DNA from: Henricia sp. BOLD:AAB3569
Lineage: Eukaryota; Echinodermata; Asteroidea; Spinulosida; Echinasteridae
Assembly: GCA_037783545.1 (NCBI GenBank)
Contig: JBBELK010000687.1
Coordinates: forward strand, 1-64,000
Direction: 5' to 3'
Length of the DNA: 64,000 nucleotides
Position numbers and translations under genes: made by a program. Of the stretch, positions 571 to 25,200 are shown piece by piece. Below the pieces are notes generated by a model. The model was given only the letters and a program-made list of their open reading frames with translations, ran no database searches and had not been told where the DNA came from. Each line of letters starts with the position of its first letter. Position 1 is the stretch's first letter.

Positions 571-3500
571 TGTCAAAGTGTGGTCCAAACGTCGGCAAAT
601 TTGGAGGTCAAAAAATATTCCGACGAACTTCAAATTTTGCATGCTCCAAACACTCTATATTGCGCACTTGTCCTAAAAAATTGACAGACTTTCGCCGGGA
701 AATGGCAGAGAAATTTCAGAGTTTAGAAAAAAAAGGGGTTGGCGCTTCCTGGATGCTCCCGCAACCTGTGGCTGTCTGTACACACCTCTTTGGTGTATTC
801 CTGACTGGTGCGCATGCTCAGTCCTTCGGACTGTCGTTGACACGGCCCAGTTTGGGACGGGATTTTGGTCAAAGTGTGGTCCAAACGTCGGCAAATTTGG
901 AGGTCAAAAAATATTCCGACGAACTTCAAATTTTGCATGCTCCAAACACTCTATATTGCGCACTTGTCCTAAAAAATGACAGACTTTCGCCGGGAAATTG
1001 CAGAGAAATTTCAGAGTTTAGAAAAAAAAGGGGGTTGGCGCTTCCTGGATGCTCCCGCAACCTGTGGCTGTCTGTACACACCTCTTTGGTGTATTCCTGA
1101 CTGGTGCGCATGCTCAGTCCTTCGGACTGTCGTTGACGCGGCCCAGTTTGGGACGGGATTTTGGTCAAAGTGTGGTCCAAACGTCGGCAAATTTGGAGGT
1201 CAAAAAATATTCCGACGAACTTCAAATTTTGCATGCTCCAAACACTCTATATTGCGCACTTGTCCTAAAAAAATTGACAGACTTTCGCCGGGAAATGGCA
1301 GAGAAATTTCAGAGTTTAGAAAAAAAAGGGGTTGGCGCTTCCTGGATGCTCCCGCAACCTGTGGCTGTCTGTACACACCTCTTTGGTGTATTCCTGACTC
1401 GTGCGCATGCTCAGTCCTTCGGACTGTCGTTGACGCGGCCCAGTTTGGGACGGGATTTTGGTCAAAGTGTGGTCCAAACGTCGGCAAATTTGGAGGTCAA
1501 AAAATATTCCGACGAACTTCAAATTTTGCATGCTCCAAACACTCTATATTGCGCACTTGTCCTAAAAAATTGACAGACTTTCGCCGGAAATGGCAAAGAA
1601 ATTTCAGAGTTTAGAAAAAAAAGGGGGTTGGCGCTTCCTGGATGCTCCCGCAACCTGTGGCTGTCTGTACACACCTCTTTGGTGTATTCCTGACTCGTGC
1701 GCATGCTCAGTCCTTCGGACTGTCGTTGACGCGGCCCAGTTTGGGACGGGATTTTGGTCAAAGTGTGGTCCAAACGTCGGCAAATTTGGAGGTCAAAAAA
1801 TATTCCGACGAACTTCAAATTTTGCATGCTCCAAACATATATTGCGCACTTGTCCTAAAAAATTGACAGACTTTCGCCTGGAAATGGCAGAGAAATTTCA
1901 GAGTCTTAGAAAAAAAAGGGGTTGGCGCTTCCTGGAATGCTCCCGCAACCTGTGGCTGTCTGTACACACCTCTTTGGTGTATTCCTGACTCGTGCGCATG
2001 CTCAGTCCTTCGGACTGTCGTTGACGCGGCCCAGTTTGGGACGGGATTTTGGTCAAAGTGTGGTCCAAACGTCGGCAAATTTTGGAGGTCAAAAAATATT
2101 CCGACGAACTTCAAATTTTGCATGCTCCAAACACTCTGTATTGCGCACTTGTCCTAACAAATTGACAGACTTTCGCCGGGAAATGGCAGAGAAATGTCAG
2201 AGTTTAGAAAAAAAAGGGGTTGGCGCTTCCTGGATGCTCCCGCAACCTGTGGCTGTCTGTACACACCTCTTTGGTGTATTCCTGACTCGTGCGCATGCTC
2301 AGTCCTTCGGACTGTCGTTGACACGGCCCAGTTTGGGACGGGATTTTGGTCAAAGTGTGGTCCAAACGTCGGCAAATTTGGAGGTCAAAAAATATTCCGA
2401 CGAACTTCAAATTTTGCATGCTCCAAACACTCTATATTGCGCACTTGTCCTAAAAAATTGACAGACTTTCGCCGGGAAATGGCAGAGAAATTTCAGAGTT
2501 TAGAAAAAAAAGGGGTTGGCGCTTCCTGGATGCTCCCGCAACCTGTGGCTGTCTGTACACACCTCTTTGGTGTATTCCTGACTCGTGCGCATGCTCAGTC
2601 CTTCGGACTGTCGTTGACACGGCCCAGTTTGGGACGGGATTTTGGTCAAAGTGTGGTCCAAACGTCGGCAAATTTGGAGGTCAAAAAATATTCCGACGAA
2701 CTTCAAATTTTGCATGCTCCAAACACTCTATATTGCGCACTTGTCCTAAAAAATTGACAGACTTTCGCCGGGAAATGGCAGAGAAATTTCAGAGTTTAGA
2801 AAAAAAAAGGGGTTGGCGCTTCCTGGATGCTCCCGCAACCTGTGGCTGTCTGTACACACCTCTTTGGTGTATTCCTGACTCGTGCGCATGCTCAGTTCTT
2901 CGGACTGTCGTTGACGCGGCCCAGTTTGGGACGGGATTTTGGTCAAAGTGTGGTCCAAACGTCGGCAAATTTGGAGGTCAAAAAATATTCCGACGAACTT
3001 CAAATTGTGCATGCTCCAAACACTCTATATTGCGCACTTGTCCTAAAAAATTGACAGACTTTCGCCGGGAAATGGCAGAGAAATTTCAGAGTTTAGAAAA
3101 AAAAAGGGGGTTGGCGCTTCCTGGATGCTCCCGCAACCTGTGGCTGTCTGTACACACCTCTTTGGTGTATTCCTGACTCGTGCGCATGCTCAGTCCTTCG
3201 GACTGTCGTTGACGCGGCCCAGTTTGGGACGGGATTTTGGTCAAAGTGTGGTCCAAACGTCGGCAAATTTGGAGGTCAAAAAATATTCCGACGAACTTCA
3301 AATTTTGCATGCTCCAAACACTCTATATTGCGCACTTGTCCTAAAAAATTGACAGACTTTCGCCGGGAAATGGCAGAGAAATTTCAGAGTTTAGAAAAAA
3401 AAGGGGTTGGCGCTTCCTGGATGCTCCCGCAACCTGTGGCTGTCTGTACACACCTCTTTGGTGTATTCCTGACTCGTGCGCATGCTCAGTCCTTCGGACT

Positions 3501-6500
3501 GTCGTTGACGCGGCCCAGTTTGGGACGGGATTTTGGCCAAAGTGTGGTCCAAACGTCGGCAAATTTGGAGGTAAAAAAATATTCCGACGAACTTCAAATT
3601 TTGCATGCTCCAAACACTCTATATTGCGCACTTGTCCTAAAAAATTGACAGACTTTCGCCGGGAAATGGCAGAGAAATTTCAGAGTTTAGAAAAAAAAGG
3701 GGTTGGCGCTTCCTGGATGCTCCCGCAACCTGTGGCTGTCTGTACACACCTCTTTGGTGTATTCCTGTCTCGTGCGCATGCTCAGTCCTTCGGACTGTCG
3801 TTGACGCGGCCCAGTTTGGGACGGGATTTTGGTCAAAGTGTGGTCCAAACGTCGGCAAATTTGAAGGTCAAAAAAAATTCCGACGAACTTCAAATTTTGC
3901 ATGCTCCAAACACTCTATATTGCGCACTTGTCCTAAAAAATTGACAGACTTTCGCCGAGAAATGGCAGAGAAATTTCAGAGTTTAGAAAAAAAAGCGGTT
4001 GGCGCTTCCTGGATGCTCCCGCAACCTGTGGCTGTCTGTACACACCTCTTTGGTGTATTCCTGACTCGTGCGCATGCTCAGTCCTTCGGACTGTCGTTGA
4101 CACGGCCCAGTTTGGGACGGGATTTTGGTCAAAGTGTGGTCCAAACGTCGGCAAATTTGGAGGTCAAAAAATATTCCGACGAACTTCAAATTTTGCATGC
4201 TCCAAACACTCTATATTGCGCACTTGTCCTAAAAAATTGACAGACTTTCGCCGGGAAATGGCAGAGAAATTTCAGAGTTTAGAAAAAAAAGGGGTTGGCG
4301 CTTCCTGGATGCTCCCGCAACCTGTGGCTGTCTGTACACACCTCTTTGGTGTATTCCTGACTCGTGCGCATGCTCAGTCCTTCGGACTGTCGTTGACACG
4401 GCCCAGTTTGGGACGGGATTTTGGTCAAAGTGTGGTCCAAACGTCGGCAAATTTGGAGGTCAAAAAATATTCCGACGAACTTCAAATTTTGCATGCTCCA
4501 AACACTCTATATTGCGCACTTGTCCTAAAAAATTGACAGACTTTCGCCGGGAAATGGCAGAGAAATTTCAGAGTTTAGAAAAAAAAGGGGTTGGCGCTTC
4601 CTGGATGCTCCCGCAACCTGTGGCTGTCTGTACACACCTCTTTGGTGTATTCCTGACTCGTGCGCATGCTCAGTTCTTCGGACTGTCGTTGACGCGGCCC
4701 AGTTTGGGACGGGATTTTGGTCAAAGTGTGGTCCAAACGTCGGCAAATTTGGAGGTCAAAAAATATTCCGACGAACTTCAAATTGTGCATGCTCCAAACA
4801 CTCTATATTGCGCACTTGTCCTAAAAAATTGACAGACTTTCGCCGGGAAATGGCAGAGAAATTTCAGAGTTTAGAAAAAAAAAGGGGGTTGGCGCTTCCT
4901 GGATGCTCCCGCAACCTGTGGCTGTCTGTACACACCTCTTTGGTGTATTCCTGACTCGTGCGCATGCTCAGTCCTTCGGACTGTCGTTGACGCGGCCCAG
5001 TTTGGGACGGGATTTTGGTCAAAGTGTGGTCCAAACGTCGGCAAATTTGGAGGTCAACAAATATTCCGACGAACTTCAAATTTTGCATGCTCCAAACACT
5101 CTATATTGCGCACTTGTCCTAAAAAATTGACAGACTTTCGCCGGGAAATGGCAGAGAAATTTCAGAGTTTAGAAAAAAAAGGGGTTGGCGCTTCCTGGAT
5201 GCTCCCGCAACCTGTGGCTGTCTGTACACACCTCTTTGGTGTATTCCTGACTCGTGCGCATGCTCAGTCCTTCGGACTGTCGTTGACGCGGCCCAGTTTG
5301 GGACGGGATTTTGGCCAAAGTGTGGTCCAAACGTCGGCAAATTTGGAGGTAAAAAAATATTCCGACGAACTTCAAATTTTGCATGCTCCAAACACTCTAT
5401 ATTGCGCACTTGTCCTAAAAAAATGACAGACTTTCGCCGGGAAATGGCAGAGAAATTTCAGAGTTTAGAAAAAAAAGGGGTTGGCGCTTCCTGGATGCTC
5501 CCGCAACCTGTGGCTGTCTGTACACACCTCTTTGGTGTATTCCTGTCTCGTGCGCATGCTCAGTCCTTCGGACTGTCGTTGACGCGGCCCAGTTTGGGAC
5601 GGGATTTTGGTCAAAGTGTGGTCCAAACGTCGGCAAATTTGAAGGTCAAAAAAAATTCCGACGAACTTCAAATTTTGCATGCTCCAAACACTCTATATTG
5701 CGCACTTGTCCTAAAAAATTGACAGACTTTCGCCGGGAAATGGCAGAGAAATTTCAGAGTTTAGAAAAAAAAGCGGTTGGCGCTTCCTGGATGCTCCCGC
5801 AACCTGTGGCTGTCTGTACACACCTCTTTGGTGTATTCCTGACTCGTGCGCATGCTCAGTCCTTCGGACTGTCGTTGACGCGGCCCAGTTTGGGACGGGA
5901 TTTTGGTCAAAGTGTGGTCCAAACGTCGGCAAATTTGGAGGTCAAAAAATATTCCGACGAACTTCAAATTGTGCATGCTCCAAACACTCTATATTGCGCA
6001 CTTGTCCTAAAAAATTGACAGACTTTCGCCGGGAAATGGCAGAGAAATTTCAGAGTTTAGAAAAAAAAAGGGGGTTGGCGCTTCCTGGATGCTCCCGCAA
6101 CCTGTGGCTGTCTGTACACACCTCTTTGGTGTATTCCTGACTCGTGCGCATGCTCAGTCCTTCGGACTGTCGTTGACGCGGCCCAGTTTGGGACGGGATT
6201 TTGGTCAAAGTGTGGTCCAAACGTCGGCAAATTTGGAGGTCAAAAAATATTCCGACGAACTTCAAATTTTGCATGCTCCAAACACTCTATATTGCGCACT
6301 TGTCCTAAAAAATTGACAGACTTTCGCCGGGAAATGGCAGAGAAATTTCAGAGTTTAGAAAAAAAAGGGGTTGGCGCTTCCTGGATGCTCCCGCAACCTG
6401 TGGCTGTCTGTACACACCTCTTTGGTGTATTCCTGACTCGTGCGCATGCTCAGTCCTTCGGACTGTCGTTGACGCGGCCCAGTTTGGGACGGGATTTTGG

Positions 6501-9500
6501 CCAAAGTGTGGTCCAAACGTCGGCAAATTTGGAGGTAAAAAAATATTCCGACGAACTTCAAATTTTGCATGCTCCAAACACTCTATATTGCGCACTTGTC
6601 CTAAAAAATTGACAGACTTTCGCCGGGAAATGGCAGAGAAATTTCAGAGTTTAGAAAAAAAAGGGGTTGGCGCTTCCTGGATGCTCCCGCAACCTGTGGC
6701 TGTCTGTACACACCTCTTTGGTGTATTCCTGTCTCGTGCGCATGCTCAGTCCTTCGGACTGTCGTTGACGCGGCCCAGTTTGGGACGGGATTTTGGTCAA
6801 AGTGTGGTCCAAACGTCGGCAAATTTGAAGGTCAAAAAAAATTCCGACGAACTTCAAATTTTGCATGCTCCAAACACTCTATATTGCGCACTTGTCCTAA
6901 AAAATTGACAGACTTTCGCCGGGAAATGGCAGAGAAATTTCAGAGTTTAGAAAAAAAAGCGGTTGGCGCTTCCTGGATGCTCCCGCAACCTGTGGCTGTC
7001 TGTACACACCTCTTTGGTGTATTCCTGACTCGTGCGCATGCTCAGTCCTTCGGACTGTCGTTGACGCGGCCCAGTTTGGGACGGGATTTTGGTCAAAGTG
7101 TGGTCCAAACGTCGGCAAATTTGGAGGTCAAAAAATATTCCGACGAACTTCAAATTTTGCATGCTCCAAACACTCTATATTGCGCACTTGTCCTAAAAAA
7201 TTGACAGACTTTCGCCGGGAAATGGCAGAGAAATTTCAGAGTTTAGAAAAAAAAGGGGTTGGCGCTTCCTGGATGCTCCCGCAACCTGTGGCTGTCTGTA
7301 CACACCTCTTTGGTGTATTCCTGACTCGTGCGCATGCTCAGTCCTTCGGACTGTCGTTGACGCAGCCCAGTTTGGGACGGGATTTTGGTCAAAGTGTGGT
7401 CCAAACGTCGGCAAATTTGGAGGTCAAAAAATATTCCGACGAACTTCAAATTTTGCATGCTCCAAACACTCTATATTGCGCACTTGTCCTAAAAAATTGA
7501 CAGACTTTCGCCGGGAAATGGCAGAGAAATTTCAGAGTTTAGAAAAAAAAGGGGTTGGCGCTTCCTGGATGCTCCGCAACCTGTGGCTGTCTGTACACAC
7601 CTCTTTGGTGTATTCCTGACTCGTGCGCATGCTCAGTCCTTTGGAATGGCGTTGACACGGCCCAGTTCGGGACGGGATTTTGGTCAAAGTGTGGTCCAAA
7701 CGTCGGCAAATTTGGAGGTCAAAAAATATTCCGACGAACTTCAAATTTTGCATGCTCCAAACACTCTATATTGCGCACTTGTCCTAAAAAATTGACAGAC
7801 TTTCGCCGGGAAATGGCAGAGAAATTTCAGAGTTTAGAAAAAAAAGGGGTTGGCGCTTCCTGGATGCTCCCGCAACCTGTGGCTGTCTGTACACACCTCT
7901 TTGGTGTATTCCTGACTCGTGCGCATGCTCAGTCCTTCGGACTGTCGTTGACGCGGCCCAGTTTGGGACGGGATTTTGGTCAAAGTGTGGTCCAAACGTC
8001 GGCAAATTTGGAGGTCAAAAAATATTCCGACGAACTTTAAATTTTGCATGCTCCAAACACTCTATATTGCGCACTTGTCCTAAAAAATTGACAGACTTTC
8101 GCCGGGAAATGGCAGAGAAATTTCAGAGTTTAGAAAAAAAAAGGGGTTGGCGCTTCCTGGATGCTCCCGCAACCTGTGGCTGTCTGTACACACCTCTTTG
8201 GTGTATTCCTGACTCGTGCGCATGCTCAGTCCTTCGGACTGTCGTTGACGCGGCCCAGTTTGGGACGGGATTTTGGTCAAAGTGTGGTCCAAACGTCGGC
8301 AAATTTGGAGGTCAAAAAATATTCCGACGAACTTCAAATTTTGCATGCTCCAAACACTCTATATTGCGCACTTGTCCTAAAAAATTGACAGACTTTCGCC
8401 GGGAAATGGCAGAGAAATTTCAGAGTTTAGAAAAAAAAGGGGTTGGCGCTTCCTGGATGCTCCCGCAACCTGTGGCTGTCTGTACACACCTCTTTGGTGT
8501 ATTCCTGACTGGTGCGCATGCTCAGTCCTTCGGACTGTCGTTGACACGGCCCAGTTTGGGACGGGATTTTGGTCAAAGTGTGGTCCAAACGTCGGCAAAT
8601 TTGGAGGTCCAAAAATATTCCGACGAACTTCAAATTTTGCATGCTCCAAACACTCTATATTGCGCACTTGTCCTAAAAAATTGACAGACTTTCGCCGGGA
8701 AATGGCAGAGAAATTTCAGAGTTTAGAAAAAAAAGGGGTTGGCGCTTCCTGGATGCTCCGCAACCTGTGGCTGTCTGTACACACCTCTTTGGTGTATTCC
8801 TGACTCGTGCGCATGCTCAGTCCTTTGGAATGGCGTTGACACGGCCCAGTTTGGGACGGGATTTTGGTCAAAGTGTGGTCCAAACGTCGGCAAATTTGGA
8901 GGTCAAAAAATATTCCGACGAACTTCAAATTTTGCATGCTCCAAACACTCTATATTGCGCACTTGTCCTAAAAAAATTGACAGACTTTCGCCGGGAAATG
9001 GCAGAGAAATTTCAGAGTTTAGAAAAAAAAGGGGTTGGCGCTTCCTGGATGCTCCCGCAACCTGTGGCTGTCTGTACACACCTCTTTGGTGTATTCCTGA
9101 CTCGTGCGCATGCTCAGTCCTTCGGACTGTCGTTGACGCGGCCCAGTTTGGGACGGGATTTTGGTCAAAGTGTGGTCCAAACGTCGGCAAATTTGGAGGT
9201 CAAAAAATATTCCGACGAACTTCAAATTTTGCATGCTCCAAACACTCTATATTGCGCACTTGTCCTAAAAAATTGACAGACTTTCGCCGGGAAATGGCAG
9301 AGAAATTTCAGAGTTTAGAAAAAAAAGGGGTTGGCGCTTCCTGGATGCTCCTGCAACCTGTGGCTGTCTGTACACACCTCTTTGGTGTATTCCTGACTGG
9401 TGCGCATGCTCAGTCCTTCGGACTGTCGTTGACACGGCCCAGTTTGGGACGGGATTTTGGTCAAAGTGTGGTCCAAACGTCGGCAAATTTGGAGGTCCAA

Positions 9501-9652
9501 AAATATTCCGACGAACTTCAAATTTTGCATGCTCCAAACACTCTATATTGCGCACTTGTCCTAAAAAATTGACAGACTTTCGCCGGGAAATGGCAGAGAA
9601 ATTTCAGAGTTTAGAAAAAAAAGGGGTTGGCGCTTCCTGGATGCTCCCGCAT
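571..9652 (+). repeat. Left arm of a long inverted duplication
   Basis: Rare point variants here recur in reverse order and reverse complement in 10745-24026. Matched pairs are 571 with 24026 (G to T in GATTTTGGTC), 2196 with 22400 (T to G in GAAATTTCAG), 3768 with 20532 (A to T in CCTGACTCG), 7364 with 12144 (CGCGG to CGCAG), 7642 with 11866 (CTTCGG to CTTTGG), 9399 with 10998 (ACTCG to ACTGG), and 9652 with 10745 (CAACC to CATCC). Distances within matched blocks agree: 1625 against 1626 bp for the first two pairs, and 278 against 278 bp for 7364-7642. Between blocks the offset changes by about whole monomers. Outer limits are set only by the last shared variant seen. Confidence 0.75.
3391..7458 (+). 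repeat. Higher-order repeat block, units of 4-6 monomers
   Basis: Three monomer types recur in fixed order: one with GGTAAAAAAAT and GGCCAAAG, one with CCTGTCTCG and GAAGGTCAAAAAAAATT, and one with AAAGCGG in place of AAAGGGG. The trio starts near 3391, 5169 and 6355, giving repeat lengths of 1778 and 1186 bp (six and four monomers). This points to unequal exchange of whole blocks. The same trio elements reappear, inverted, around 18361-20900. Confidence 0.7.
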
Positions 9653-10383
9653 CCTGTGGCTGTCTCTACACACCTCTTTGGTGTATTCCTGACTCGTGCG
9701 CATGCTCAGTCCTTCGGACTGTCGTTGACACGGCCCAGTTTGGGACGGGATTTTGGTCAAAGTGTGGTCCAAACGTCGGCAAATTTGGAGGTCAAAAAAT
9801 ATTCCGACGAACTTCAAATTTTGCATGCTCCAAACACTCTATATTGCGCACTTGTCCTAAAAAATTGACAGACTTTCGCCGGGAAATGGCAGAGAAATTT
9901 CAGAGTTTAGAAAAAAAAGGGGTTGGCGCTTCCTGGATGCTCCCGCAACCTGTGGCTGTCTGTACACACCTCTTTGGTGTATTCCTGACTCGTGCGCATG
10001 CTCAGTCCTTCGGAATGGCGTTGACACGGCCCAGTTTGGGACGGGATTTTGGTCAAAGTGTGGTCCAAACGTCGGCAAATTTGGAGGTCCAAAAATATTC
10101 CGACGAACTTCAAATTTTGCATGCTCCAAACACTCTATATTGCGCACTTGTCCTAAAAAATTGACAGACTTTCGCCGGGAAATGGCAGAGAAATTTCAGA
10201 GTTTAGAAAAAAAAGGGGTTGGCGCTTCCTGGATGCTCCCGCAACCTGTGGCTGTCTGTACACACCTCTTTGGTGTATTCCTGACTCGTGCGCATGCTCA
10301 GTCCTTCGGACTGTCGTTGACACGGCCCAGTTTGGGACGGGATTTTGGTCAAAGTGTGGTCCAAACGTCGGCAAATTTGGAGG

Positions 10384-10440
10384 TCCGACGAACTTCAAAT
10401 TTTGCATGCTCCAAACACTCTATATTGCGTGTGTACAGAC
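10384..10440. other. Satellite orientation switch (inversion breakpoint) with adjacent 11-bp deletion
   Basis: F-orientation monomer sequence runs to CTATATTGCG (ending at 10429). The next bases, TGTGTACAGACAGCC, are R-orientation sequence from a different point in the monomer. There is no more than about one base of shared sequence at the joint. About 43 bp upstream, at 10386, the usual GGTCCAAAAATATTCCGACG is shortened to GGTCCGACG, an 11-bp loss between two TCC triplets. The two breaks so close together suggest a single repair event. An assembly join is the main alternative. Confidence 0.85.
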
Positions 10441-11458
10441 AGCCACAGGTTGCGGGAGCATCCAGGAAGCGCCAACCCCTTTTTTTCTAAACTCTGAAAT
10501 TTCTCTGCCATTTCCCGGCGAAAGTCTGTCAATTTTTTAGGACAAGTGCGCAATATAGAGTGTTTGGAGCATGCAAAATTTAAAGTTCATCGGAATATTT
10601 TTTGACCTCCAAATTTGCCGACGTTTGGACCACACTTTGACCAAAATCCCGTCCCAAACTGGGCCGTGTCAACGACAGTCCGAAGGACTGAGCATGCGCA
10701 CGAGTCAGGAATACACCAAAGAGGTGTGTACAGACAGCCACAGGATTCGGGAGCATACAGGAAGCGCCAACCCCTTTTTTGTCTAAACTCTGAAATTTCT
10801 CTGCCATTTCCCGGCGAAAGTCTGTCAATTTTTTAGGACAAGTGCGCAATATAGAGTGTTTGGAGCATGCAAAATTTGAAGTTCGTCGGAATATTTTTGG
10901 ACCTCCAAATTTGCCGACGTTTGGACCACACTTTGACCAAAATCCCGTCCCAAACTGGGCCGTGTCAACGACAGTCCGAAGGACTGAGCATGCGCACCAG
11001 TCAGAAATACACCAAAGAGGTGTGTACAGACAGCCACAGGTTGCGGGAGCATCCAGGAAGCGCCAACCCCTTTTTTTTCTAAACTCTGAAATTTCTCTGC
11101 CATTTCCCGGCGAAAGTCTGTCAATTTTTTAGGACAAGTGCGCAATATAGAGTGTTTGGAGCATGCAAAATTTGAAGTTCGTCGGAAAATTTTTTGACCT
11201 CCAAATTTTCCGACGTTTGGACCACACTTTGACCAAAATCCCGTCCCAAACTGGGCCGCGTCAACGACAGTCCGAAGGACTGAGCATGCGCACGAGTCAG
11301 GAATACACCAAAGAGGTGTGTACAGACAGCCACAGGTTGCGGGAGCATCCAGGAAGCGCCAACCCCTTTTTTTTCTAAACTCTGAAATTTCTCTGCCATT
11401 TCCCGGCGAAAGTCTGTCAATTTTTTAGGACAAGTGCGCAATATAGAGTGTTTGGAGC

Positions 11459-11754
11459 ATGCAAAATTTGAAGTTCGTCGGAATATTTTTTGACCTCCAA
11501 ATTTGCCGACGTTTGGACCACACTTTGACCAAAATCCCGTCCCAAACTGGGCCGCGTCAACGACAGTCCGAAGGACTGAGCATGCGCACGAGTCAGGAAT
11601 ACACCAAAGAGGTGTGTACAGACAGCCACAGGTTGCGGGAGCATCCAGGAAGCGCCAACCCCTTTTTTTTCTAAACTCTGAAATTTCTCTGCCATTTCCC
11701 GGCGAAAGTCTGTCAATTTTTTAGGACAAGTGCGCAATATAGAGTGTTTGGAGC
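11459..11754 (-). repeat. Representative 296-bp satellite monomer
   Basis: This consensus-like copy shows the internal structure in R orientation. A spaced inverted repeat CGTCGG/CCGACG lies at 11476-11481 and 11506-11511. A perfect hairpin CAGTCC-GAA-GGACTG lies at 11564-11578, and a second, ACACC-AAAGA-GGTGT, at 11601-11615. A CCCC plus T-tract of about 8 bases lies near 11660, and its length accounts for most 296/297 differences between copies. GAGCATGC occurs twice per monomer. The length of 296 is close to two nucleosome cores (2 x 147), which could favour a phased dinucleosome, but that is inference. No tRNA-like or 5S-like promoter boxes were recognised. Confidence 0.9.
11564..11578. 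other. Perfect 6-bp-stem hairpin of the monomer (example copy)
   Basis: CAGTCC and GGACTG flank a 3-base loop. The loop is GAA in most copies and GGA in a large subfamily common from about 34 kb onward, giving a TCCGGA site. Some subfamilies break the stem (CCATTCC, or GAAGAACTG), so strict constraint on the hairpin is not shown. Confidence 0.6.
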
Positions 11755-12354
11755 ATGCAAAATTTGAAGTTCGTCGGAATATTTTTTGACCTCCAAATTT
11801 GCCGACGTTTGGACCACACTTTGACCAAAATCCCGTCCCAAACTGGGCCGTGTCAACGCCATTCCAAAGGACTGAGCATGCGCACGAATCAGGAATACAC
11901 CAAAGAGGTGTGTACAGACAGCCACAGGTTGCGGAGCATCCAGGAAGCGCCAACCCCTTTTTTTTCTAAACTCTGAAATTTCTCTGCCATTTCCCGGCGA
12001 AAGTCTGTCAATTTTTTAGGACAAGTGCGCAATATAGAGTGTTTGGAGCATGCAAAATTTGAAGTTCGTCGGAATTTTTTTTGACCTCCAAATTTGCCGA
12101 CGTTTGGACCACACTTTGACCAAAATCCCGTCCCAAACTGGGCTGCGTCAACGACAGTCCGAAGGATTGAGCATGCGCACGAGTCAGGAATACACCAAAG
12201 AGGTGTGTACAGACAGCCACAGGTTGCGGGAGCATCCAGGAAGCGCCAACCGCTTTTTTTTCTAAACTCTGAAATTTCTCTGCCATTTTCCGGCGAAAGT
12301 CTGTCAATTTTTTAGGACAAGTGCGCAATATAGAGTGTTTGGAGCATGCAAAAT

Positions 12355-12535: not shown

Positions 12536-12616
12536 ATTTAAAGTAGTAATTACACTGGCCCATCACGTAAAACGGGCGGGCAAAACAGCTGTATGCTTTT
12601 GAAAAATGGGAGGGTG
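12536..12616. other. Short spacer between left terminal repeat and internal complementary region
   Basis: No ORF, repeat or recognisable site was found in this 81-bp stretch of mixed composition. Confidence 0.6.
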
Positions 12617-13979: not shown

Positions 13980-15214
13980 TAACCGCGACCTCGACCTCGG
14001 CGGTAGGGCGCCCTCTGTTGGCGACCATAGTAAGCCTGTCTGGGAAATCCCCGAGATCGAAAATCCCCCGATCGTCGGGAGGACTGACCGGCCCGACGGT
14101 TGTTATAACTTTCAGGGCCAAGGATTTTCGAGCCAATTTTGCTGGTCTCTTGGATCATTTTGCAAGATTGCACCAAGTCGTCCCCAAATAAATGATCTGT
14201 ACAGGGCACCTGCGAGGAGCAAAGTGGCGCATACTTGGCGCTTAGATCTGGCCGAATATTATCTCGTCTCCGCAGATTTAACTGCGAGTTTCCTGCGCCA
14301 AGAATGGCGACCGCATCAACGAGCATTCGAATGAGTTGAGCGGTGTCCAGGCCAGTGTCACTATTGTTACGTGACTTTAACAATTGATCGGTAATAATTG
14401 AAATGGCAGTGGACGCTTTCACAAAAGCGTTCTGGATTTTCTGGAATTTGACGTCTTTTGTTCTGGTTGTGGGTTTGAGAATCGCCCAGATTTCAGAGTT
14501 CACTCTGGTGATACAGAGGTTTTTACAATTGCTTGGTTTGTCGTATTTTTTGATTTTCTCATCAAGCTTCTCGCTTTGTATTTTGCCTCGAGCCAGTGCA
14601 TTTATGGTCTTGGCCAACTGGTCATTAAGGGCCGGGCTTTCTTTGTCATCGCCCTCAATAAGCGCCGCCATTTCGGTCAGCAATTCGTCTTCAACCTTAT
14701 TTTGGTCATTGCCTAACAGGTTGTCTATGTCACCTTCGGTGAACGTGTCATCGCCCTTTTCAGGTGCGGTATTAATCATTTTTGTCTCGCCCTTTTCAGG
14801 TGCGAGTCCCGTTAAGACTGCATCAAGCTCGTCGTCATCGTCTATTATTTCGCCCTCGCTAGCTGCATAATCATTAGCGACAACATGGGTGTTCGCAAAT
14901 ACCGGCTGGTGGTTTTGGCGTGAAAATGCTTCGGTCAAAGAAGCTACGCTTTGTTGCAAGGAGACGACTATTTCCCGTAAATCGCAGTCATTTTTCTTAG
15001 CTTTACATGCCGCGGGTGTGCTCGCGTCTTGCCCTGTATTTTTACGCTTAGCAGTGCGCTTTTTTGCTGGTGTCGCAACTGGTTTGCTTGTACTCGGCGT
15101 TGCTGTACTAGCAGTAGCAGCCGGCCAGCCAGAAAGCTCGTTGTCTAATTGCTCAAAAAGCGCTTCATCTTCAGACGGATTGACCTGCAAAACTGACTCG
15201 GTGGTCTCGGCCAT
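13898..15214 (-). CDS. DIRS gag-like ORF1 protein, 438 aa, intact
   Basis: The start is the ATG at 15212-15214, which has G at -3 and G at +4. The frame is open 17 codons further, but only to a GTG. The product is presumably the nucleocapsid-like protein that packages element RNA. In order it shows an acidic N-terminus (residues 14-27), a Ser/Thr/Ala/Pro-rich linker, a basic nuclear-localisation-like patch KKRTAKRK (51-58), a short coiled-coil-like helix (79-98), and an acidic stretch (119-190) with a duplicated APEKG motif at 138-142 and 150-154. A conserved-looking globular core spans about 195-365, and an Arg/Gly/Tyr/Gln-rich tail about 371-428 probably binds RNA. There is no CCHC zinc knuckle, as is usual for DIRS ORF1. 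The stop overlaps the pol frame. The identification rests on composition and position, so exact family membership is uncertain. Confidence 0.82.
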   Translation of the reverse strand: MAETTESVLQVNPSEDEALFEQLDNELSGWPAATASTATPSTSKPVATPAKKRTAKRKNTGQDASTPAACKAKKNDCDLREIVVSLQQSVASLTEAFSRQNHQPVFANTHVVANDYAASEGEIIDDDDELDAVLTGLAPEKGETKMINTAPEKGDDTFTEGDIDNLLGNDQNKVEDELLTEMAALIEGDDKESPALNDQLAKTINALARGKIQSEKLDEKIKKYDKPSNCKNLCITRVNSEIWAILKPTTRTKDVKFQKIQNAFVKASTAISIITDQLLKSRNNSDTGLDTAQLIRMLVDAVAILGAGNSQLNLRRRDNIRPDLSAKYAPLCSSQVPCTDHLFGDDLVQSCKMIQETSKIGSKILGPESYNNRRAGQSSRRSGDFRSRGFPRQAYYGRQQRAPYRRGRGRGYYRTMYNQQLYHQQQQPTGITARKPVN

Positions 15215-15334
15215 AGCTATAGAAAACGTTACAGGCCACAGCGTGGTCCAAGCAAGGTGTGGCACGTATATACTGTACTTAGCGCAAAACGCGTACTAAG
15301 CTGCGATATGCTCACGCATGAGCCACTGAAAATA

Positions 15335-15449
15335 CACTGGTGAGCGTCCGGTGAGGGTGCCTTTATATAGGGGCTGACTGGCAGGACTGGCATTCCTTTC
15401 TTTGAATGAGTGGCATACCTAGCCTACTGAACAATACAATCTCACGTGA
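15335..15449 (-). repeat. DIRS inverted terminal repeat, right copy (115 bp, 5' end of the element)
   Basis: Reverse complement of 12421-12535, with no mismatch seen. It lies upstream of gag and carries the element promoter. A 120-bp leader (15215-15334) separates it from the gag ATG and has no other recognised site. Confidence 0.95.
15361..15369 (-). promoter_or_regulatory. TATA-like box upstream of gag
   Basis: On the minus strand this reads TATATAAAG, about 147 bp upstream of the gag ATG. It sits inside the 5' terminal repeat, the expected place for the element's RNA polymerase II promoter. Confidence 0.55.
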
Positions 15450-15478
15450 TCCGAATGGAGGTAATGGTGAGGTAGAAT
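15440..15478 (-). repeat. DIRS 5' outer end, exactly complementary to the internal complementary region
   Basis: Reverse complement of 12691-12729 over 39 bp. It is shorter than the left outer end and lacks its hairpin. It ends in GGTAGAAT, where AAT is shared with the satellite target. Confidence 0.92.
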
Positions 15479-15765
15479 TTGAAGTTCGTCGGAATATTTT
15501 TGGACCTCCAAATTTGCCGACGTTTGGACCACACTTTGACCAAAATCCCGTCCCAAACTGGGCCGTGTCAACGCCATTCCGAAGGACTGAGCATGCGCAC
15601 GAGTCAGGAATACACCAAAGAGGTGTGTACAGACAGCCACAGGTTGCGGGAGCATCCAGGAAGCGCCAACCCCTTTTTTTTCTAAACTCTGAAATTTCTC
15701 TGCCATTTCCCGGCGAAAGTCTGTCAATTTTTTAGGACAAGTGCGCAATATAGAGTGTTTGGAGC

Positions 15766-16026
15766 ATGCCAAATTTGCCGACGTTTGGACCACACTTTGA
15801 CCAAAATCCCGTCCCAAACTGGGCCGTGTCAACGACAGTCCGAAGGACTGAGCATGCGCACGAGTCAGGAATACACCAAAGAGGTGTGTACAGACAGCCA
15901 CAGGTTGCGGGAGCATCCAGGAAGCGTCAACCCCTTTTTTTTCTAAACTCTGAAATTTCTCTGCCATTTCCCGGCGAAAGTCTGTCAATTTTTTAGGACA
16001 AGTGCGCAATATAGAGTGTTTGGAGC
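15766..16026 (-). repeat. Truncated 261-bp monomer (35-bp deletion), copy 1
   Basis: GCATGC is joined directly to CAAATTTGCCGACG, removing 35 bp. The same deletion joint occurs at 17507 and 18952. Each follows a monomer with CGCCATTCCG, so all three descend from one event. Confidence 0.9.
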
Positions 16027-17506
16027 ATGCAAAATTTGAAGTTCGTCGGAATTTTTTTTGACCTTCAAATTTGCCGACGTTTGGACCACACTTTGACCAA
16101 AATCCCGTCCCAAACTGGGCCGCGTCAACGACAGTCCGAAGGACTGAGCATGCGCACGAGTCAGGAATACACCAAAGAGGTGTGTACAGACAGCCACAGG
16201 TTGCGGAGCATCCAGGAAGCGCCAACCCCTTTTTTTTCTAAACTCTGAAATTTCTCTGCCATTTCCCGGCGAAAGTCTGTCAATTTTTTAGGACAAGTGC
16301 GCAATATAGAGTGTTTGGAGCATGCAAAATTTGAAGTTCGTCGGAATATTTTTTGACCTCCAAATTTGCCGACGTTTGGACCACACTTTGACCAAAATCC
16401 CGTCCCAAACTGGGCAGCGTCAACGACAGTCCGAAGGACTGAGCATGCGCACGAGTCAGGAATACACCAAAGAGGTGTGTACAGACAGCCACAGGTTGCG
16501 GGAGCATCCAGGAAGCGCCAACCCCCTTTTTTTTCTAAACTCTGAAATTTCTCTGCCATTTCCCGGCGAAAGTCTGTCAATTTTTTAGGACCAGTGCGCA
16601 ATATAGAGTGTTTGGAGCATGCAAAATTTGAAGTTCGTCGGAATTTTTTTTGACCTCCAAATTTGCCGACGTTTGGACCACACTTTGACCAAAATCCCGT
16701 CCCAAACTGGGCTGCGTCAACGACAGTCCGAAGGACTGAGCATGCGCACGAGTCAGGAATACACCAAAGAGGTGTGTACAGACAGCCACAGGTTGCGGGA
16801 GCATCCAGGAAGCGCCAACCCCTTTTTTTTCTAAACTCTGAAATTTCTCTGCCATTTCCCGGCGAAAGTCTGTCAATTTTTTAGGACAAGTGCGCAATAT
16901 AGAGTGTTTGGAGCATGCAAAATTTGAAGTTCGTCGGAATATTTTTTGACCTCCAAATTTGCCGACGTTTGGACCACACTTTGACCAAAATCCCGTCCCA
17001 AACTGGGCCGCGTCAACGACAGTCCGAAGGACTGAGCATGCGCACGAGTCAGGAATACACCAAAGAGGTGTGTACAGACAGCCACAGGTTGCGGGAGCAT
17101 CCAGGAAGCGCCAACCGCTTTTTTTTCTAAACTCTGAAATTTCTCTGCCATTTCCCGGCGAAAGTCTGTCAATTTTTTAGGACAAGTGCGCAATATAGAG
17201 TGTTTGGAGCATGCAAAATTTGAAGTTCGTCGGAATATTTTTGGACCTCCAAATTTGCCGACGTTTGGACCACACTTTGACCAAAATCCCGTCCCAAACT
17301 GGGCCGTGTCAACGCCATTCCGAAGGACTGAGCATGCGCACGAGTCAGGAATACACCAAAGAGGTGTGTACAGACAGCCACAGGTTGCGGGAGCATCCAG
17401 GAAGCGCCAACCCCTTTTTTTTCTAAACTCTGAAATTTCTCTGCCATTTCCCGGCGAAAGTCTGTCAATTTTTTAGGACAAGTGCGCAATATAGAGTGTT
17501 TGGAGC

Positions 17507-17767
17507 ATGCCAAATTTGCCGACGTTTGGACCACACTTTGACCAAAATCCCGTCCCAAACTGGGCCGTGTCAACGACAGTCCGAAGGACTGAGCATGCGC
17601 ACGAGTCAGGAATACACCAAAGAGGTGTGTACAGACAGCCACAGGTTGCGGGAGCATCCAGGAAGCGCCAACCCCTTTTTTTTCTAAACTCTGAAATTTC
17701 TCTGCCATTTCCCGGCGAAAGTCTGTCAATTTTTTAGGACAAGTGCGCAATATAGAGTGTTTGGAGC
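17507..17767 (-). repeat. Truncated 261-bp monomer, copy 2
   Basis: Same 35-bp deletion joint as at 15766. It closes the first five-monomer unit. Confidence 0.9.
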
Positions 17768-18951
17768 ATGCAAAATTTGAAGTTCGTCGGAATATTTTTT
17801 GACCTCCAAATTTGCCGACGTTTGGACCACACTTTGACCAAAATCCCGTCCCAAACTGGGCAGCGTCAACGACAGTCCGAAGGACTGAGCATGCGCACGA
17901 GTCAGGAATACACCAAAGAGGTGTGTACAGACAGCCACAGGTTGCGGGAGCATCCAGGAAGCGCCAACCCCCTTTTTTTTCTAAACTCTGAAATTTCTCT
18001 GCCATTTCCCGGCGAAAGTCTGTCAATTTTTTAGGACCAGTGCGCAATATAGAGTGTTTGGAGCATGCAAAATTTGAAGTTCGTCGGAATTTTTTTTGAC
18101 CTCCAAATTTGCCGACGTTTGGACCACACTTTGACCAAAATCCCGTCCCAAACTGGGCTGCGTCAACGACAGTCCGAAGGACTGAGCATGCGCACGAGTC
18201 AGGAATACACCAAAGAGGTGTGTACAGACAGCCACAGGTTGCGGGAGCATCCAGGAAGCGCCAACCCCTTTTTTTTCTAAACTCTGAAATTTCTCTGCCA
18301 TTTCCCGGCGAAAGTCTGTCAATTTTTTAGGACAAGTGCGCAATATAGAGTGTTTGGAGCATGCAAAATTTGAAGTTCGTCGGAATATTTTTTGACCTCC
18401 AAATTTGCCGACGTTTGGACCACACTTTGACCAAAATCCCGTCCCAAACTGGGCCGCGTCAACGACAGTCCGAAGGACTGAGCATGCGCACGAGTCAGGA
18501 ATACACCAAAGAGGTGTGTACAGACAGCCACAGGTTGCGGGAGCATCCAGGAAGCGCCAACCGCTTTTTTTTCTAAACTCTGAAATTTCTCTGCCATTTC
18601 CCGGCGAAAGTCTGTCAATTTTTTAGGACAAGTGCGCAATATAGAGTGTTTGGAGCATGCAAAATTTGAAGTTCGTCGGAATATTTTTGGACCTCCAAAT
18701 TTGCCGACGTTTGGACCACACTTTGACCAAAATCCCGTCCCAAACTGGGCCGTGTCAACGCCATTCCGAAGGACTGAGCATGCGCACGAGTCAGGAATAC
18801 ACCAAAGAGGTGTGTACAGACAGCCACAGGTTGCGGGAGCATCCAGGAAGCGCCAACCCCTTTTTTTCTAAACTCTGAAATTTCTCTGCCATTTCCCGGC
18901 GAAAGTCTGTCAATTTTTTAGGACAAGTGCGCAATATAGAGTGTTTGGAGC

Positions 18952-19212
18952 ATGCCAAATTTGCCGACGTTTGGACCACACTTTGACCAAAATCCCGTCC
19001 CAAACTGGGCCGTGTCAACGACAGTCCGAAGGACTGAGCATGCGCACGAGTCAGGAATACACCAAAGAGGTGTGTACAGACAGCCACAGGTTGCGGGAGC
19101 ATCCAGGAAGCGCCAACCCCTTTTTTTTCTAAACTCTGAAATTTCTCTGCCATTTCCCGGCGAAAGTCTGTCAATTTTTTAGGACAAGTGCGCAATATAG
19201 AGTGTTTGGAGC
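18952..19212 (-). repeat. Truncated 261-bp monomer, copy 3
   Basis: Same 35-bp deletion joint. It closes the second five-monomer unit. Confidence 0.9.
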
Positions 19213-22200
19213 ATGCAAAATTTGAAGTTCGTCGGAATTTTTTTTGACCTTCAAATTTGCCGACGTTTGGACCACACTTTGACCAAAATCCCGTCCCAAA
19301 CTGGGCCGCGTCAACGACATTCCGAAGGACTGAGCATGCGCACGAGACAGGAATACACCAAAGAGGTGTGTACAGACAGCCACAGGTTGCGGGAGCATCC
19401 AGGAAGCGCCAACCCCTTTTTTTTCTAAACTCTGAAATTTCTCTGCCATTTCCCGGCGAAAGTCTGTCAATTTTTTAGGACAAGTGCGCAATATAGAGTG
19501 TTTGGAGCATGCAAAATTTGAAGTTCGTCGGAATATTTTTTTACCTCCAAATTTGCCGACGTTTGGACCACACTTTGGCCAAAATCCCGTCCCAAACTGG
19601 GCCGCGTCAACGACAGTCCGAAGGACTGAGCATGCGCACGAGTCAGGAATACACCAAAGAGGTGTGTACAGACAGCCACAGGTTGCGGGAGCATCCAGGA
19701 AGCGCCAACCCCTTTTTTTTCTAAACTCTGAAATTTCTCTGCCATTTCCCGGCGAAAGTATGTCAATTTTTTAGGACAAGTGCGCAATATAGAGTGTTTG
19801 GAGCATGCAAAATTTGAAGTTCGTCGGAATATTTTTTGACCTCCAAATTTGCCGACGTTTGGACCACACTTTGACCAAAATCCCGTCCCAAACTGGGCCG
19901 CGTCAACGACAGTCCGAAGGACTGAGCATGCGCACGAGTCAGGAATACACCAAAGAGGTGTGTACAGACAGCCACAGGTTGCGGGAGCATCCAGGAAGCG
20001 CCAACCCCCTTTTTTTTCTAAACTCTGAAATTTCTCTGCCATTTCCCGGCGAAAGTCTGTAAATTTTTTAGGACAAGTGCGCAATATAGAGTGTTTGGAG
20101 CATGCAAAATTTGAAGTTCGTCGGAATATTTTTTGACCTCCAAATTTGCCGACGTTTGGACCACACTTTGACCAAAATCCCGTCCCAAACTGGGCCGCGT
20201 CAACGACAGTCCGAAGAACTGAGCATGCGCACGAGTCAGGAATACACCAAAGAGGTGTGTACAGACAGCCACAGGTTGCGGGAGCATCCAGGAAGCGCCA
20301 ACCCCTTTTTTTTCTAAACTCTGAAATTTTTCTGCCATTTCCCGGCGAAAGTCTGTCAATTTTTTAGGACAAGTGCGCAATATAGAGTGTTTGGAGCATG
20401 CAAAATTTGAAGTTCGTCGGAATATTTTTTGACCTCCAAATTTGCCGACGTTTGGACCACACTTTGACCAAAATCCCGTCCCAAACTGGGCCGCGTCAAC
20501 GACAGTCCGAAGGACTGAGCATGCACACGAGACAGGAATACACCAAAGAGGTGTGTACAGACAGCCACAGGTTGCGGGAGCATCCAGGAAGCGCCAACCC
20601 CTTTTTTTTCTAAACTCTGAAATTTCTCTGCCATTTCCCGGCGAAAGTCTGTCAATTTTTTAGGACAAGTGCGCAATATACAGTGTTTGGAGCATGCAAA
20701 ATTTGAAGTTCGTCGGAATATTTTTTTACCTCCAAATTTGCCGACGTTTGGACCACACTTTGGCCAAAATCCCGTCCCAAACTGGGCCGCGTCAACGACA
20801 GTCCGAAGGACTGAGCATGCGCACGAGTCAGGAATACACCAAAGAGGTGTGTACAGACAGCCACAGGTTGCGGGAGCATCCAGGAAGCGCCAACCCCTTT
20901 TTTTTCTAAACTCTGAAATTTCTCTGCCATTTCCCGGCGAAAGTCTGTCAATTTTTTAGGACAAGTGCGCAATATAGAGTGTTTGGAGCATGCAAAATTT
21001 GAAGTTCGTCGGAATATTTTTTGACCTCCAAATTTGCCGACGTTTGGACCACACTTTGACCAAAATCCCGTCCCAAACTGGGCCGCGTCAACGACAGTCC
21101 GAAGGACTGAGCATGCGCACGAGTCAGGAATACACCAAAGAGGTGTGTACAGACAGCCACAGGTTGCGGGAGCATCCAGGAAGCGCCAACCCCTTTTTTT
21201 TTCTAAACTCTGAAATTTCTCTGCCATTTCCCGGCGAAAGTCTGTAAATTTTTTAGGACAAGTGCGCAATATAGAGTGTTTGGAGCATGCAAAATTTGAA
21301 GTTCGTCGGAATATTTTTTGACCTCCAAATTTGCCGACGTTTGGACCACACTTTGACCAAAATCCCGTCCCAAACTGGGCCGCGTCAACGACAGTCCGAA
21401 GGACTGAGCATGCGCACGAGTCAGGAATACACCAAAGAGGTGTGTACAGACAGCCACAGGTTGCGGGAGCATCCAGGAAGCGCCAACCCCCTTTTTTTTC
21501 TAAACTCTGAAATTTCTCTGCCATTTCCCGGCGAAAGTCTGTAAATTTTTTAGGACAAGTGCGCAATATAGAGTGTTTGGAGCATGCAAAATTTGAAGTT
21601 CGTCGGAATATTTTTTGACCTCCAAATTTGCCGACGTTTGGACCACACTTTGACCAAAATCCCGTCCCAAACTGGGCCGCGTCAACGACAGTCCGAAGAA
21701 CTGAGCATGCGCACGAGTCAGGAATACACCAAAGAGGTGTGTACAGACAGCCACAGGTTGCGGGAGCATCCAGGAAGCGCCAACCCCTTTTTTTTCTAAA
21801 CTCTGAAATTTCTCTGCCATTTCCCGGCGAAAGTCTGTCAATTTTTTAGGACAAGTGCGCAATATAGAGTGTTTGGAGCATGCAAAATTTGAAGTTCGTC
21901 GGAATATTTTTTGACCTCCAAATTTGCCGACGTTTGGACCACACTTTGACCAAAATCCCGTCCCAAACTGGGCCGTGTCAACGACAGTCCGAAGGACTGA
22001 GCATGCGCACGAGTCAGGAATACACCAAAGAGGTGTGTACAGACAGCCACAGGTTGCGGGAGCATCCAGGAAGCGCCAACCCCTTTTTTTTTCTAAACTC
22101 TGAAATTTCTCTGCCATTTCCCGGCGAAAGTCTGTCAATTTTTTAGGACAAGTGCGCAATATAGAGTGTTTGGAGCATGCAAAATTTGAAGTTCGTCGGA

Positions 22201-25200
22201 ATATTTTTTGACCTCCAAATTTGCCGACGTTTGGACCACACTTTGACCAAAATCCCGTCCCAAACTGGGCCGTGTCAACGACAGTCCGAAGGACTGAGCA
22301 TGCGCACGAGTCAGGAATACACCAAAGAGGTGTGTACAGACAGCCACAGGTTGCGGGAGCATCCAGGAAGCGCCAACCCCTTTTTTTTCTAAACTCTGAC
22401 ATTTCTCTGCCATTTCCCGGCGAAAGTCTGTCAATTTGTTAGGACAAGTGCGCAATATAGAGTGTTTGGAGCATGCAAAATTTGAAGTTCGTCGGAATAT
22501 TTTTTGACCTCCAAATTTGCCGACGTTTGGACCACACTTTGACCAAAATCCCGTCCCAAACTGGGCCGCGTCAACGACAGTCCGAAGGACTGAGCATGCG
22601 CACGAGTCAGGAATACACCAAAGAGGTGTGTACAGACAGCCACAGGTTGCGGGAGCATCCAGGAAGCGCCAACCCCTTTTTTTTCTAAACTCTGAAATTT
22701 CTCTGCCATTTCCCGGCGAAAGTCTGTCAATTTTTTAGGACAAGTGCGCAATATAGAGTGTTTGGAGCATGCAAAATTTGAAGTTCGTCGGAATATTTGT
22801 TGACCTCCAAATTTGCCGACGTTTGGACCACACTTTGACCAAAATCCCGTCCCAAACTGGGCCGCGTCAACGACAGTCCGAAGGACTGAGCATGCGCACG
22901 AGTCAGGAATACACCAAAGAGGTGTGTACAGACAGCCACAGGTTGCGGGAGCATCCAGGAAGCGCCAACCCCTTTTTTTTCTAAACTCTGAAATTTCTCT
23001 GCCATTTCCCGGCGAAAGTCTGTCAATTTGTTAGGACAAGTGCGCAATATAGAGTGTTTGGAGCATGCAAAATTTGAAGTTCGTCGGAATATTTTTGGAC
23101 CTCCAAATTTGCCGACGTTTGGACCACACTTTGACCAAAATCCCGTCCCAAACTGGGCCGTGTCAACGACAGTCCGGAGGACTGAGCATGCGCACGAGTC
23201 AGGAATACACCAAAGAGGTGTGTACAGACAGCCACAGGTTGCGGGAGCATCCAGGAAGCGCCAACCCCTTTTTTTTCTAAACTCTGAAATTTCTCTGCCA
23301 TTTCCCGGCGAAAGTCTGTCAATTTTTTAGGACAAGTGCGCAATATAGAGTGTTTGGAGCATGCAAAATTTGAAGTTCGTCGGAATATTTTTTGACCTCC
23401 AAATTTGCCGACGTTTGGACCACACTTTGACCAAAATCCCGTCCCAAACTGGGCCGCGTCAACGACAGTCCGAAGGACTGAGCATGCGCACCAGTCAGGA
23501 ATACACCAAAGAGGTGTGTACAGACAGCCACAGGTTGCGGGAGCATCCAGGAAGCGCCAACCCCCTTTTTTTTCTAAACTCTGAAATTTCTCTGCAATTT
23601 CCCGGCGAAAGTCTGTCAATTTTTTAGGACAAGTGCGCAATATAGAGTGTTTGGAGCATGCAAAATTTGAAGTTCGTCGGAATATTTTTTGACCTCCAAA
23701 TTTGCCGACGTTTGGACCACACTTTGACCAAAATCCCGTCCCAAACTGGGCCGCGTCAACGACAGTCCGAAGGACTGAGCATGCGCACCAGTCAGGAATA
23801 CACCAAAGAGGTGTGTACAGACAGCCACAGGTTGCGGGAGCATCCAGGAAGCGCCAACCCCCTTTTTTTTCTAAACTCTGAAATTTCTCTGCAATTTCCC
23901 GGCGAAAGTCTGTCAATTTTTTAGGACAAGTGCGCAATATAGAGTGTTTGGAGCATGCAAAATTTGAAGTTCGTCGGAATATTTTTTGACCTCCAAATTT
24001 GCCGACGTTTGGACCACACTTTGACAAAAATCCCGTCCCAAACTGGGCCGCGTCAACGACAGTCCGAAGGACTGAGCATGCGCACGAGTCAGGAATACAC
24101 CAAAGAGGTGTGTACAGACAGCCACAGGTTGCGGGAGCATCCAGGAAGCGCCAACCCCTTTTTTTTCTAAACTCTGAAATTTCTCTGCCATTTCCCGGCG
24201 AAAGTCTGTCAATTTTTTAGGACAAGTGCGCAATATAGAGTGTTTGGAGCATGCAAAATTTGAAGTTCGTCGGAATATTTTTTGACCTCCAAATTTGCCG
24301 ACGTTTGGACCACACTTTGACCAAAATCCCGTCCCAAACTGGGCCGCGTCAACGACAGTCCGAAGGACTGAGCATGCGCACGAGTCAGGAATACACCAAA
24401 GAGGTGTGTACAGACAGCCACAGGTTGCGGGAGCATCCAGGAAGCGCCAACCCCCTTTTTTTTCTAAACTCTGAAATTTCTCTGCCATTTCCCGGCGAAA
24501 GTCTGTAAATTTGTTAGGACAAGTGCGCAATATAGAGTGTTTGGAGCATGCAAAATTTGAAGTTCGTCGGAATATTTTTTGACCTCCAAATTTGCCGACG
24601 TTTGGACCACACTTTGACCAAAATCCCGTCCCAAACTGGGCCGCGTCAACGACAGTCCGAAGGACTGAGCATGCGCACCAGTCAGGAATACACCAAAGAG
24701 GTGTGTACAGACAGCCACAGGTTGCGGGAGCATCCAGGAAGCGCCAACCCCCTTTTTTTTCTAAACTCTGAAATTTCTCTGCAATTTCCCGGCGAAAGTC
24801 TGTCAATTTTTTAGGACAAGTGCGCAATATAGAGTGTTTGGAGCATGCAAAATTTGAAGTTCGTCGGAATATTTTTTGACCTCCAAATCTGCCGACGTTT
24901 GGACCACACTTTGACCAAAATCCCGTCCCAAACTGGGCCGCGTCAACGACAGTCCGAAGGACTGAGCATGCGCACCAGTCAGGAATACACCAAAGAGGTG
25001 TGTACAGACAGCCACAGGTTGCGGGAGCATCCAGGAAGCGCCAACCCCCTTTTTTTTCTAAACTCTGAAATTTCTCTGCAATTTCCCGGCGAAAGTCTGT
25101 CAATTTTTTAGGACAAGTGCGCAATATAGAGTGTTTGGAGCATGCAAAATTTGAAGTTCGTCGGAATATTTTTTGACCTCCAAATTTGCCGACGTTTGGA

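Follow-up and report, generated by a model that had tools for sequence, protein, structure and literature searches.

Mirrored order of rare monomer variants around an orientation switch in a Henricia satellite array: a probable diverged fold-back inverted duplication

The first 64 kb of contig JBBELK010000687.1 (here C687; 199,101 bp) from the assembly GCA_037783545.1 of the sea star Henricia sp. BOLD:AAB3569 (740.7 Mb in 2104 contigs) form the window analysed here, and they lie within a long tandem array of a single 296-bp satellite in which rare monomer variants recur in mirrored order on the two sides of an orientation switch. Apart from a retroelement and three short match gaps near 146-150 kb, the whole contig consists of this satellite, and a 52-base piece of the satellite unit has 42,833 exact matches across the assembly, or about 12.7 Mb at 296 bp each. 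The strand of the satellite matches bears out the switch that the original prediction had placed at 10429/10430: the satellite runs on the minus strand from 1 to 10429 and on the plus strand from 10430 to the end of the contig. Both arms were cut into monomers and aligned, and each monomer's departures from the consensus were listed. Monomer labels count outward from the switch, L0 to L35 leftward and R0 to R171 rightward; in tests on whole monomers, A0 is L1, B0-B4 are R1-R5, and B5 onward is R8 onward. Counts cover whole monomers of 220-330 bases, which leaves out incomplete monomers where the contig or an arm ends (L0, L35 and R0 among them), the element-interrupted monomer R6/R7, and units outside this size range (four intervals in C687, including the interrupted one, two in contig C1880 and four in contig C75). 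The features of the window are as follows:

1..10429, minus strand: left arm, in 36 BLAST pieces, of which 34 whole monomers were used; the arm is cut at position 1, the contig starting inside the array
9969..10429, minus strand: probable spacer of 461 bp, made up of L1 and of L0, an incomplete unit with an 11-bp deletion; both lack a partner if L2 pairs with R0
10429..10430: joint, at which the left array ends at phase 120, phase being counted from the right arm's first base
10430..12354, plus strand: inner part of the right arm, R0-R6, with partners in L2-L12
12355..15475, minus strand: inserted, internally deleted retroelement, presumably DIRS-like, in the right arm and absent from the left
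15476..19070, plus strand: local amplification on the right side, R7-R19, in which a 35-bp deletion marks three monomers
19071..24108, plus strand: outer part of the right arm, R20-R36, with partners in L16-L33
24109..64000, plus strand: same-strand continuation of the array, with no convincing mirror partner in the left arm

Read outward from the switch, the rare variants of left monomers reappear on the right in the same order as far as 24026/571. Twenty-one rare variants (no more than 8 copies in the 34 + 34 monomers under comparison) are common to both arms, a larger number than the minimum of seven in the original prediction; they pair L3 with R1, L9 with R4, L10 with R5 and L12 with R6/R9 in the inner part, and L16 to L19 with R20 to R23, L22 to L25 with R24 to R28, L26/L27 with R30/R29, L28 with R31, and L31 to L33 with R34 to R36 farther out. 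By shared variants the firmest inner pair is L3-R1, whose members differ by five substitutions; a single common variant (246T) stands behind L2-R0. Chosen mirror pairs differ at 2.0 positions per monomer, against 4.9 over all pairs, although the 20 or 21 pairs that entered the pair distances and tree ranks were picked for their likeness.

The original prediction had held that monomer types from 20398 to 24026 follow those from 3768 to 571 almost one for one. The pairing of 571 with 24026 stands, as does the mirror order up to that point, but the partner of 3768 lies at 20532 rather than at 20398, and the one-for-one correspondence does not extend to the region near the joint: there a four-monomer block is present three times in the left arm and about twice in the right, the R7-R19 amplification has no counterpart on the left, and the 3.1-kb element intervenes. 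The variant spacings it reported (1625/1626 for 75A>C to 221C>A, 278/278 for 261G>A to 244C>T) are correct. Because each variant has a fixed phase in the 296-bp unit, however, equal spacing mostly means an equal number of monomers in between, and agreement to 1 bp was therefore rejected as independent evidence.

Mirror order by itself is no proof of inverted duplication: the order of higher-order repeats runs along the monomer's own strand, and any piece of one such array will therefore look mirrored once it is inverted. This is a trap that the original prediction, in arguing for inverted duplication over the joining of unrelated arrays, had missed. We rejected mirror order as sufficient proof and added controls, namely same-strand blocks, another switch, and a comparison of diagonal with proximity. 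If the two orientations had arisen by plain inversion, the far left should resemble the near right, those ends having once been adjacent, and the rank correlation would be negative; an inverted duplication predicts likeness at equal distances from the joint. The statistic was a rank correlation between the arms, in which shared rare variants are ordered outward from the switch; same-strand neighbours served as its control.

For the two arms, Spearman's coefficient was +0.91 over the 21 variants, as high a value being given by 0 of 1000 shuffles and by 4 of 1000 shuffles of four-monomer blocks. Same-strand adjacent block pairs (20 testable of 56 overlapping) had a mean rank correlation of -0.33 with a range from -0.71 to 0.69, a negative mean being what neighbours should show, and the switch in C1880 gave -0.23 with 15 variants. 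When the left arm was compared with every 34-monomer block on the right (59 blocks, 20 testable), the two blocks adjacent to the joint reached 0.91 and 0.89 and the others -0.63 to 0.73. With rarity redefined as at most 8 copies among the 652 monomers of C687, 35 cells of the comparison show sharing; their mean |i-j| was 4.28, against 10.29 +/- 1.67 after shuffling (0 of 2000 as low), and their mean i+j, at 28.7 against 30.7 +/- 2.7, did not leave its null value. A low |i-j| together with a null i+j indicates a mirror diagonal, for which proximity to the joint is no explanation. Right-side copies of these contig-wide rare variants fall within the first 34 of the 618 right monomers in 18 of 48 cases.

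Local alignment of monomer types gave a similar picture. Against 60 right monomers the mirror order scored 33.0, the opposite order 11.2 and shuffles 15.1 +/- 3.4 (0 of 1000 as high); against 170 right monomers the score was 47.2, a value attained by none of 300 plain shuffles and none of 300 shuffles of four-monomer blocks; and against the outlying part of the right arm, B[35:170], it was 11.6, which 19 of 300 shuffles matched or beat. A first scoring scheme, whose observed score was matched by 2 of 1000 shuffles, was discarded for mixing contig-wide variants and over-penalising singletons. In a tree of L1-L33 and R0-R69 (minus R6 and R7), the 21 chosen partners had a median rank of 1 out of 35, with 11 ranked first and 2 second. 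Over the unselected 33 left monomers, the index of the nearest right monomer correlated with the left index (rho 0.48; 18 of 5000 shuffles as high), and for 23 of the 33 that nearest monomer lay within R0-R36 and not R37-R69. Two inverted copies thus share their internal order from the joint outward, as a fold-back inverted duplication would have them do, and a rank correlation of +0.91 on a diagonal running outward from the joint disfavours plain inversion and favours inverted duplication with separate turnover of the arms.

A number of results count against such a duplication, and they show the mirror to be real yet softer than first described. Far from the joint, two right-hand blocks have rho values of 0.71 and 0.73. 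Block shuffles equal the 60-monomer collinearity score in 14 of 1000 trials. With a lower gap cost they do so in 2 of 300; with a higher one, which cuts the alignment to five pairs (A2-A9), they do so in 41 of 300, and plain shuffles in 1 of 300. Part of the signal is therefore local higher-order structure. The mid-left slice A[10:29] is weak when taken alone (32 of 300 shuffles; 2 of 300 for the inner 19 left monomers), one same-strand block pair attains a z of 7.0, the mirror pair 6.9, and where the array is uniform some same-strand pairs give long main-diagonal paths, with z at most 3.3 among those listed. A dot plot of the arms, which the original prediction had offered as a check, fails for unique short words: the few words occurring once per arm are not aligned at short lengths (k=41, 6 runs, rho 0.09; k=61, 7 runs, rho -0.07), with values of 0.40 (4 runs) at k=101 and 0.90 (5 runs) at k=151. 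The tree, in which mirror partners had been expected to be nearest neighbours, places 8 of the 21 chosen partners between 8th and 30th, including the inner pairs L2-R0, L3-R1 (11th) and L4-R2. These unique words and mixed tree ranks weaken the correspondence with a fold-back.

Furthermore, the mirrored variants, of which at least seven had been called private, occur in other arrays too, and are rare rather than private. The word for 20T>A has 43 exact matches in the genome, one of them in C687 (in the left arm; the partner R1 carries further changes and is unmatched). That for 254C/257T/261A has 10, seven in C537, one in C2080 and two in C687 (both in the left arm, the partner R4 having one more change). 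There are 12 for 182T/219G (five in C687, six in C2080, one in C537) and 20 for 175T/187T (five in C687, 13 in C75, two in C83). The joint itself is found in a single contig, its sequence occurring once in the genome at up to 2 mismatches. A fold-back would be expected to leave at least 2 bp of inverted microhomology; the bases shared at this joint number 0-1, fewer than the 2-8 bp given for 13 junctions in the available part of PMC3907307, and the probable 461-bp spacer falls under the minimum of 766 bp given there.

The arms also differ by the element at 12355-15475 (3.1 kb), which interrupts one right-arm monomer (R6/R7) and contains inverted repeats in three pairs, each perfectly complementary, of 116, 77 and 39 nt. 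It has a gag-like frame (13898-15265), the start of what we take to be a reverse-transcriptase-like frame (13389-13787) and a presumed tyrosine-recombinase-like end, all broken. DIRS-like elements are marked by split inverted repeats and by a tyrosine recombinase instead of an integrase, and we tentatively place the element among them; a Pfam search of the gag-like and reverse-transcriptase-like frames gave no hit. Being present on the right only, the element must have been inserted after the duplication or lost from the left. From 12204 to 19070, monomers with a 35-bp deletion (R8, R14 and R19) recur in a local block beginning at R6/R7, R13 and R18.

Taken together, the order of monomer types makes it probable that a fold-back inverted duplication, since diverged, lies within this long 296-bp array. 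A broken or stalled strand would have ended in the left array and turned back onto the complementary strand, or onto that of a sister, about 461 bp earlier, and the array would then have been copied outward again, giving two arms of opposite orientation with an equal, non-periodic order of monomer types. Point mutation and the gain and loss of whole monomers would have caused the arms to diverge, and the DIRS-like element would have inserted later, in the right arm only. The assembly itself shows the switch, the mirrored order, the lack of read-like indels close to the joint and the one-sided insertion, while the presence of the joint in the animal, the fold-back mechanism, the bounds of the spacer and the sequence of events are inferred. 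This would be a known kind of event, here resolved to the level of individual repeat variants.

One alternative is an assembly artefact: a chimeric fold-back read may have joined the right arm to an inverted copy from the other haplotype or a sister array, in which case the arms are allelic and the joint is absent from the animal; in a variant of this account, the wrong join may also have switched haplotype at the joint. The same assembly seems to contain a structure of this sort. In C75:1-27500 there is a near-perfect monomer palindrome centred at about 15073, the first 15,073 bases mirroring the sequence that follows, with 32 pairs in the alignment and, by eye, a one-for-one match from E0/F0 to E40/F38, two right-hand units falling in a dropped 593-bp interval. 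Its singleton indels, 0.65 and 0.73 per monomer on the two arms, are raw-read-like, and the whole resembles a fold-back read left uncorrected at the end of a contig, a reading of C75 that is itself an inference. The possibility that C75 was a second copy of the C687 palindrome was rejected, its arms being artefact-like and not collinear with C687. In C687 the joint is 10 kb from a contig end and is unique, the outermost ~2 kb of the left arm carry 0.43 singleton indels per monomer, and there are noisy patches elsewhere in the contig. Near the joint, however, singleton indels amount to 0.00 per monomer in the nearest ten left and five right whole monomers, a count to which the partial monomers L0 and R0, with deletions of 11 bp and 1 bp, do not belong. 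Moreover, one folded molecule should match itself near the joint, whereas these arms differ right up to it (five substitutions between L3 and R1, partnerless monomers and the spacer), and a different junction present in two contigs, C1880 and C1882, suggests that real switches exist in this genome. We thus consider an artefact unlikely. As to the noisy patches, singleton indels cluster in right monomers B180-219, B440-459 and B540-559, and the first two of these patches, set in an array that is clean apart from them, have many singleton substitutions as well, perhaps reflecting low read support.

The second junction, near 30770 in C1880 and near 54080 in C1882, is confined to those contigs at up to 3 mismatches and occurs twice in C1880; both of its arms begin at unit phase 168 around a 45-base loop. 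Among 18 contigs sampled at both ends, two (C1882 and C335, the latter between 0.4 and 7 kb) change orientation, a sampling that detects only odd numbers of switches. Since the C1880 switch has no mirror order, a recognisable mirror is not kept at every switch, and when C1880 and C1882 were compared around their common junction, a shifted control scored equally high. Private substitutions number 6 in the 12 monomers by the C687 switch against 121 in 640 others (p 0.065, not significant), and the 12 monomers by the C1880 switch carry 36, compared with 66 in 170 others (p 0.009, though one rearranged unit has probably inflated this); their density at the latter, and slightly at the former, is as if a switch behaved like an array edge. 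Near the switch in C1882, at about 54317-54662, there is also an insertion of ~345 bp that appears SINE-like by eye, judging from a tRNA-like box. Elsewhere in the assembly, C955 has three COX1 copies at intervals of 16,221 bases and is probably a concatenated mitochondrial genome, and C2104 has one COX1 copy. The COX1 frame is consistent with the echinoderm code, AAA standing at conserved asparagine positions, and the tRNAs that precede it (minus Leu-TAA, Gly, Tyr, then minus Leu-TAG, Asn, plus Gln) follow an order known from sea stars.

If the mirror order came only from a shared higher-order repeat, a plain inversion, or the join of two related arrays, would suffice to produce the switch. 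Related blocks of four to six monomers do occur in both arms, block shuffles sometimes reach the observed score, and marker variants are present in sister arrays. Nevertheless, plain inversion calls for a negative correlation where +0.91 was observed, along a diagonal leading from the joint outward, and the sampled parts of the sister arrays C2080 (19 monomers) and C75 have some of the same rare types without collinearity. Either origin is accordingly improbable. C2080 was also considered as the left arm's continuation and rejected, since 6 kb sampled from it are not collinear, and the right-arm type 41C>A+86C>A, when used to search for such a continuation, matched in C687 only, five times. 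In C537:193401-215053, the seven 254C/257T/261A matches lie close to an array's right end; the points sampled in this array are on the minus strand, and C537 could represent a sister of the left arm or its other haplotype. Finally, the palindrome might be old, with gene conversion between mirror positions maintaining the resemblance of its arms, so that likeness records continuing exchange and not the age of duplication. This is highly improbable: sharing tracks mirror positions without concentrating near the joint, as conversion would have it, but frequent conversion should have erased or spread the whole-monomer gains and losses and the one-sided element.

A fold-back inverted duplication bears on more than this contig. 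Orientation switches in satellites are often stated without a mechanism, and a mirrored order of rare variants can separate fold-back duplication from plain inversion by sequence alone; the rank-correlation statistic with its same-strand control could be applied to any long satellite assembly, and mirrored arms allow turnover to be compared between two array copies that started out identical. It is conceivable, but rather doubtful, that orientation switches of this satellite are born by fold-back copying and then become fixed landmarks with impaired exchange, each arm turning over alone and the mirror order serving as a clock of satellite evolution. The 10 kb seen here would then be what survives at the centre of a far longer palindrome, one that marks a chromosomal site, for example a centromere core.

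In literature searches of open-licence papers, by title and abstract opening, no title dealt with a comparable satellite from a sea star. The best published parallel to the pattern is provided by macro-dyad symmetries in Tribolium madens, T. freemani and T. castaneum, as described in the available part of PMC13081366: there, as here, sub-arrays of one abundant satellite, several kb long, stand in opposite orientation and are palindrome-like at the level of the array. The T. madens authors state in that part that such symmetries are documented only in Tribolium, and the available part of PMC13427858 uses the term only in citing their work; if reads confirm the joint, an echinoderm case would widen the range beyond a beetle genus. 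The two systems differ in that the two inversion types of T. madens occur in thousands of copies (2044 and 3486 sequences), whereas the Henricia joint occurs once, so that inverted sub-arrays of several kb are found here but not the same inversion site in many arrays; the Tribolium symmetry is, moreover, described for orientation and length, and here the order of monomer variants is mirrored as well (PMC13081366). Primate alpha-satellite arrays likewise change orientation inside higher-order satellite arrays, but what the part of PMC11062924 at hand describes are large inversion polymorphisms (e.g., 3.2 Mb in an orangutan centromere) and not a mirrored variant order. With respect to mechanism, the nearest parallel is provided by human fold-back inverted duplications with a disomic spacer, in which inverted copies flank a single-copy spacer, the unpaired spacer being their published mark; by the sections of PMC3907307 available, they are large duplications of mostly unique sequence in patients, with spacers of 766-70,466 bp and, at junctions lacking interspersed-repeat homology, insertions instead of microhomology in 5 of 18, whereas the copies in Henricia are diverged satellite arrays around a probable spacer of about 461 bp.

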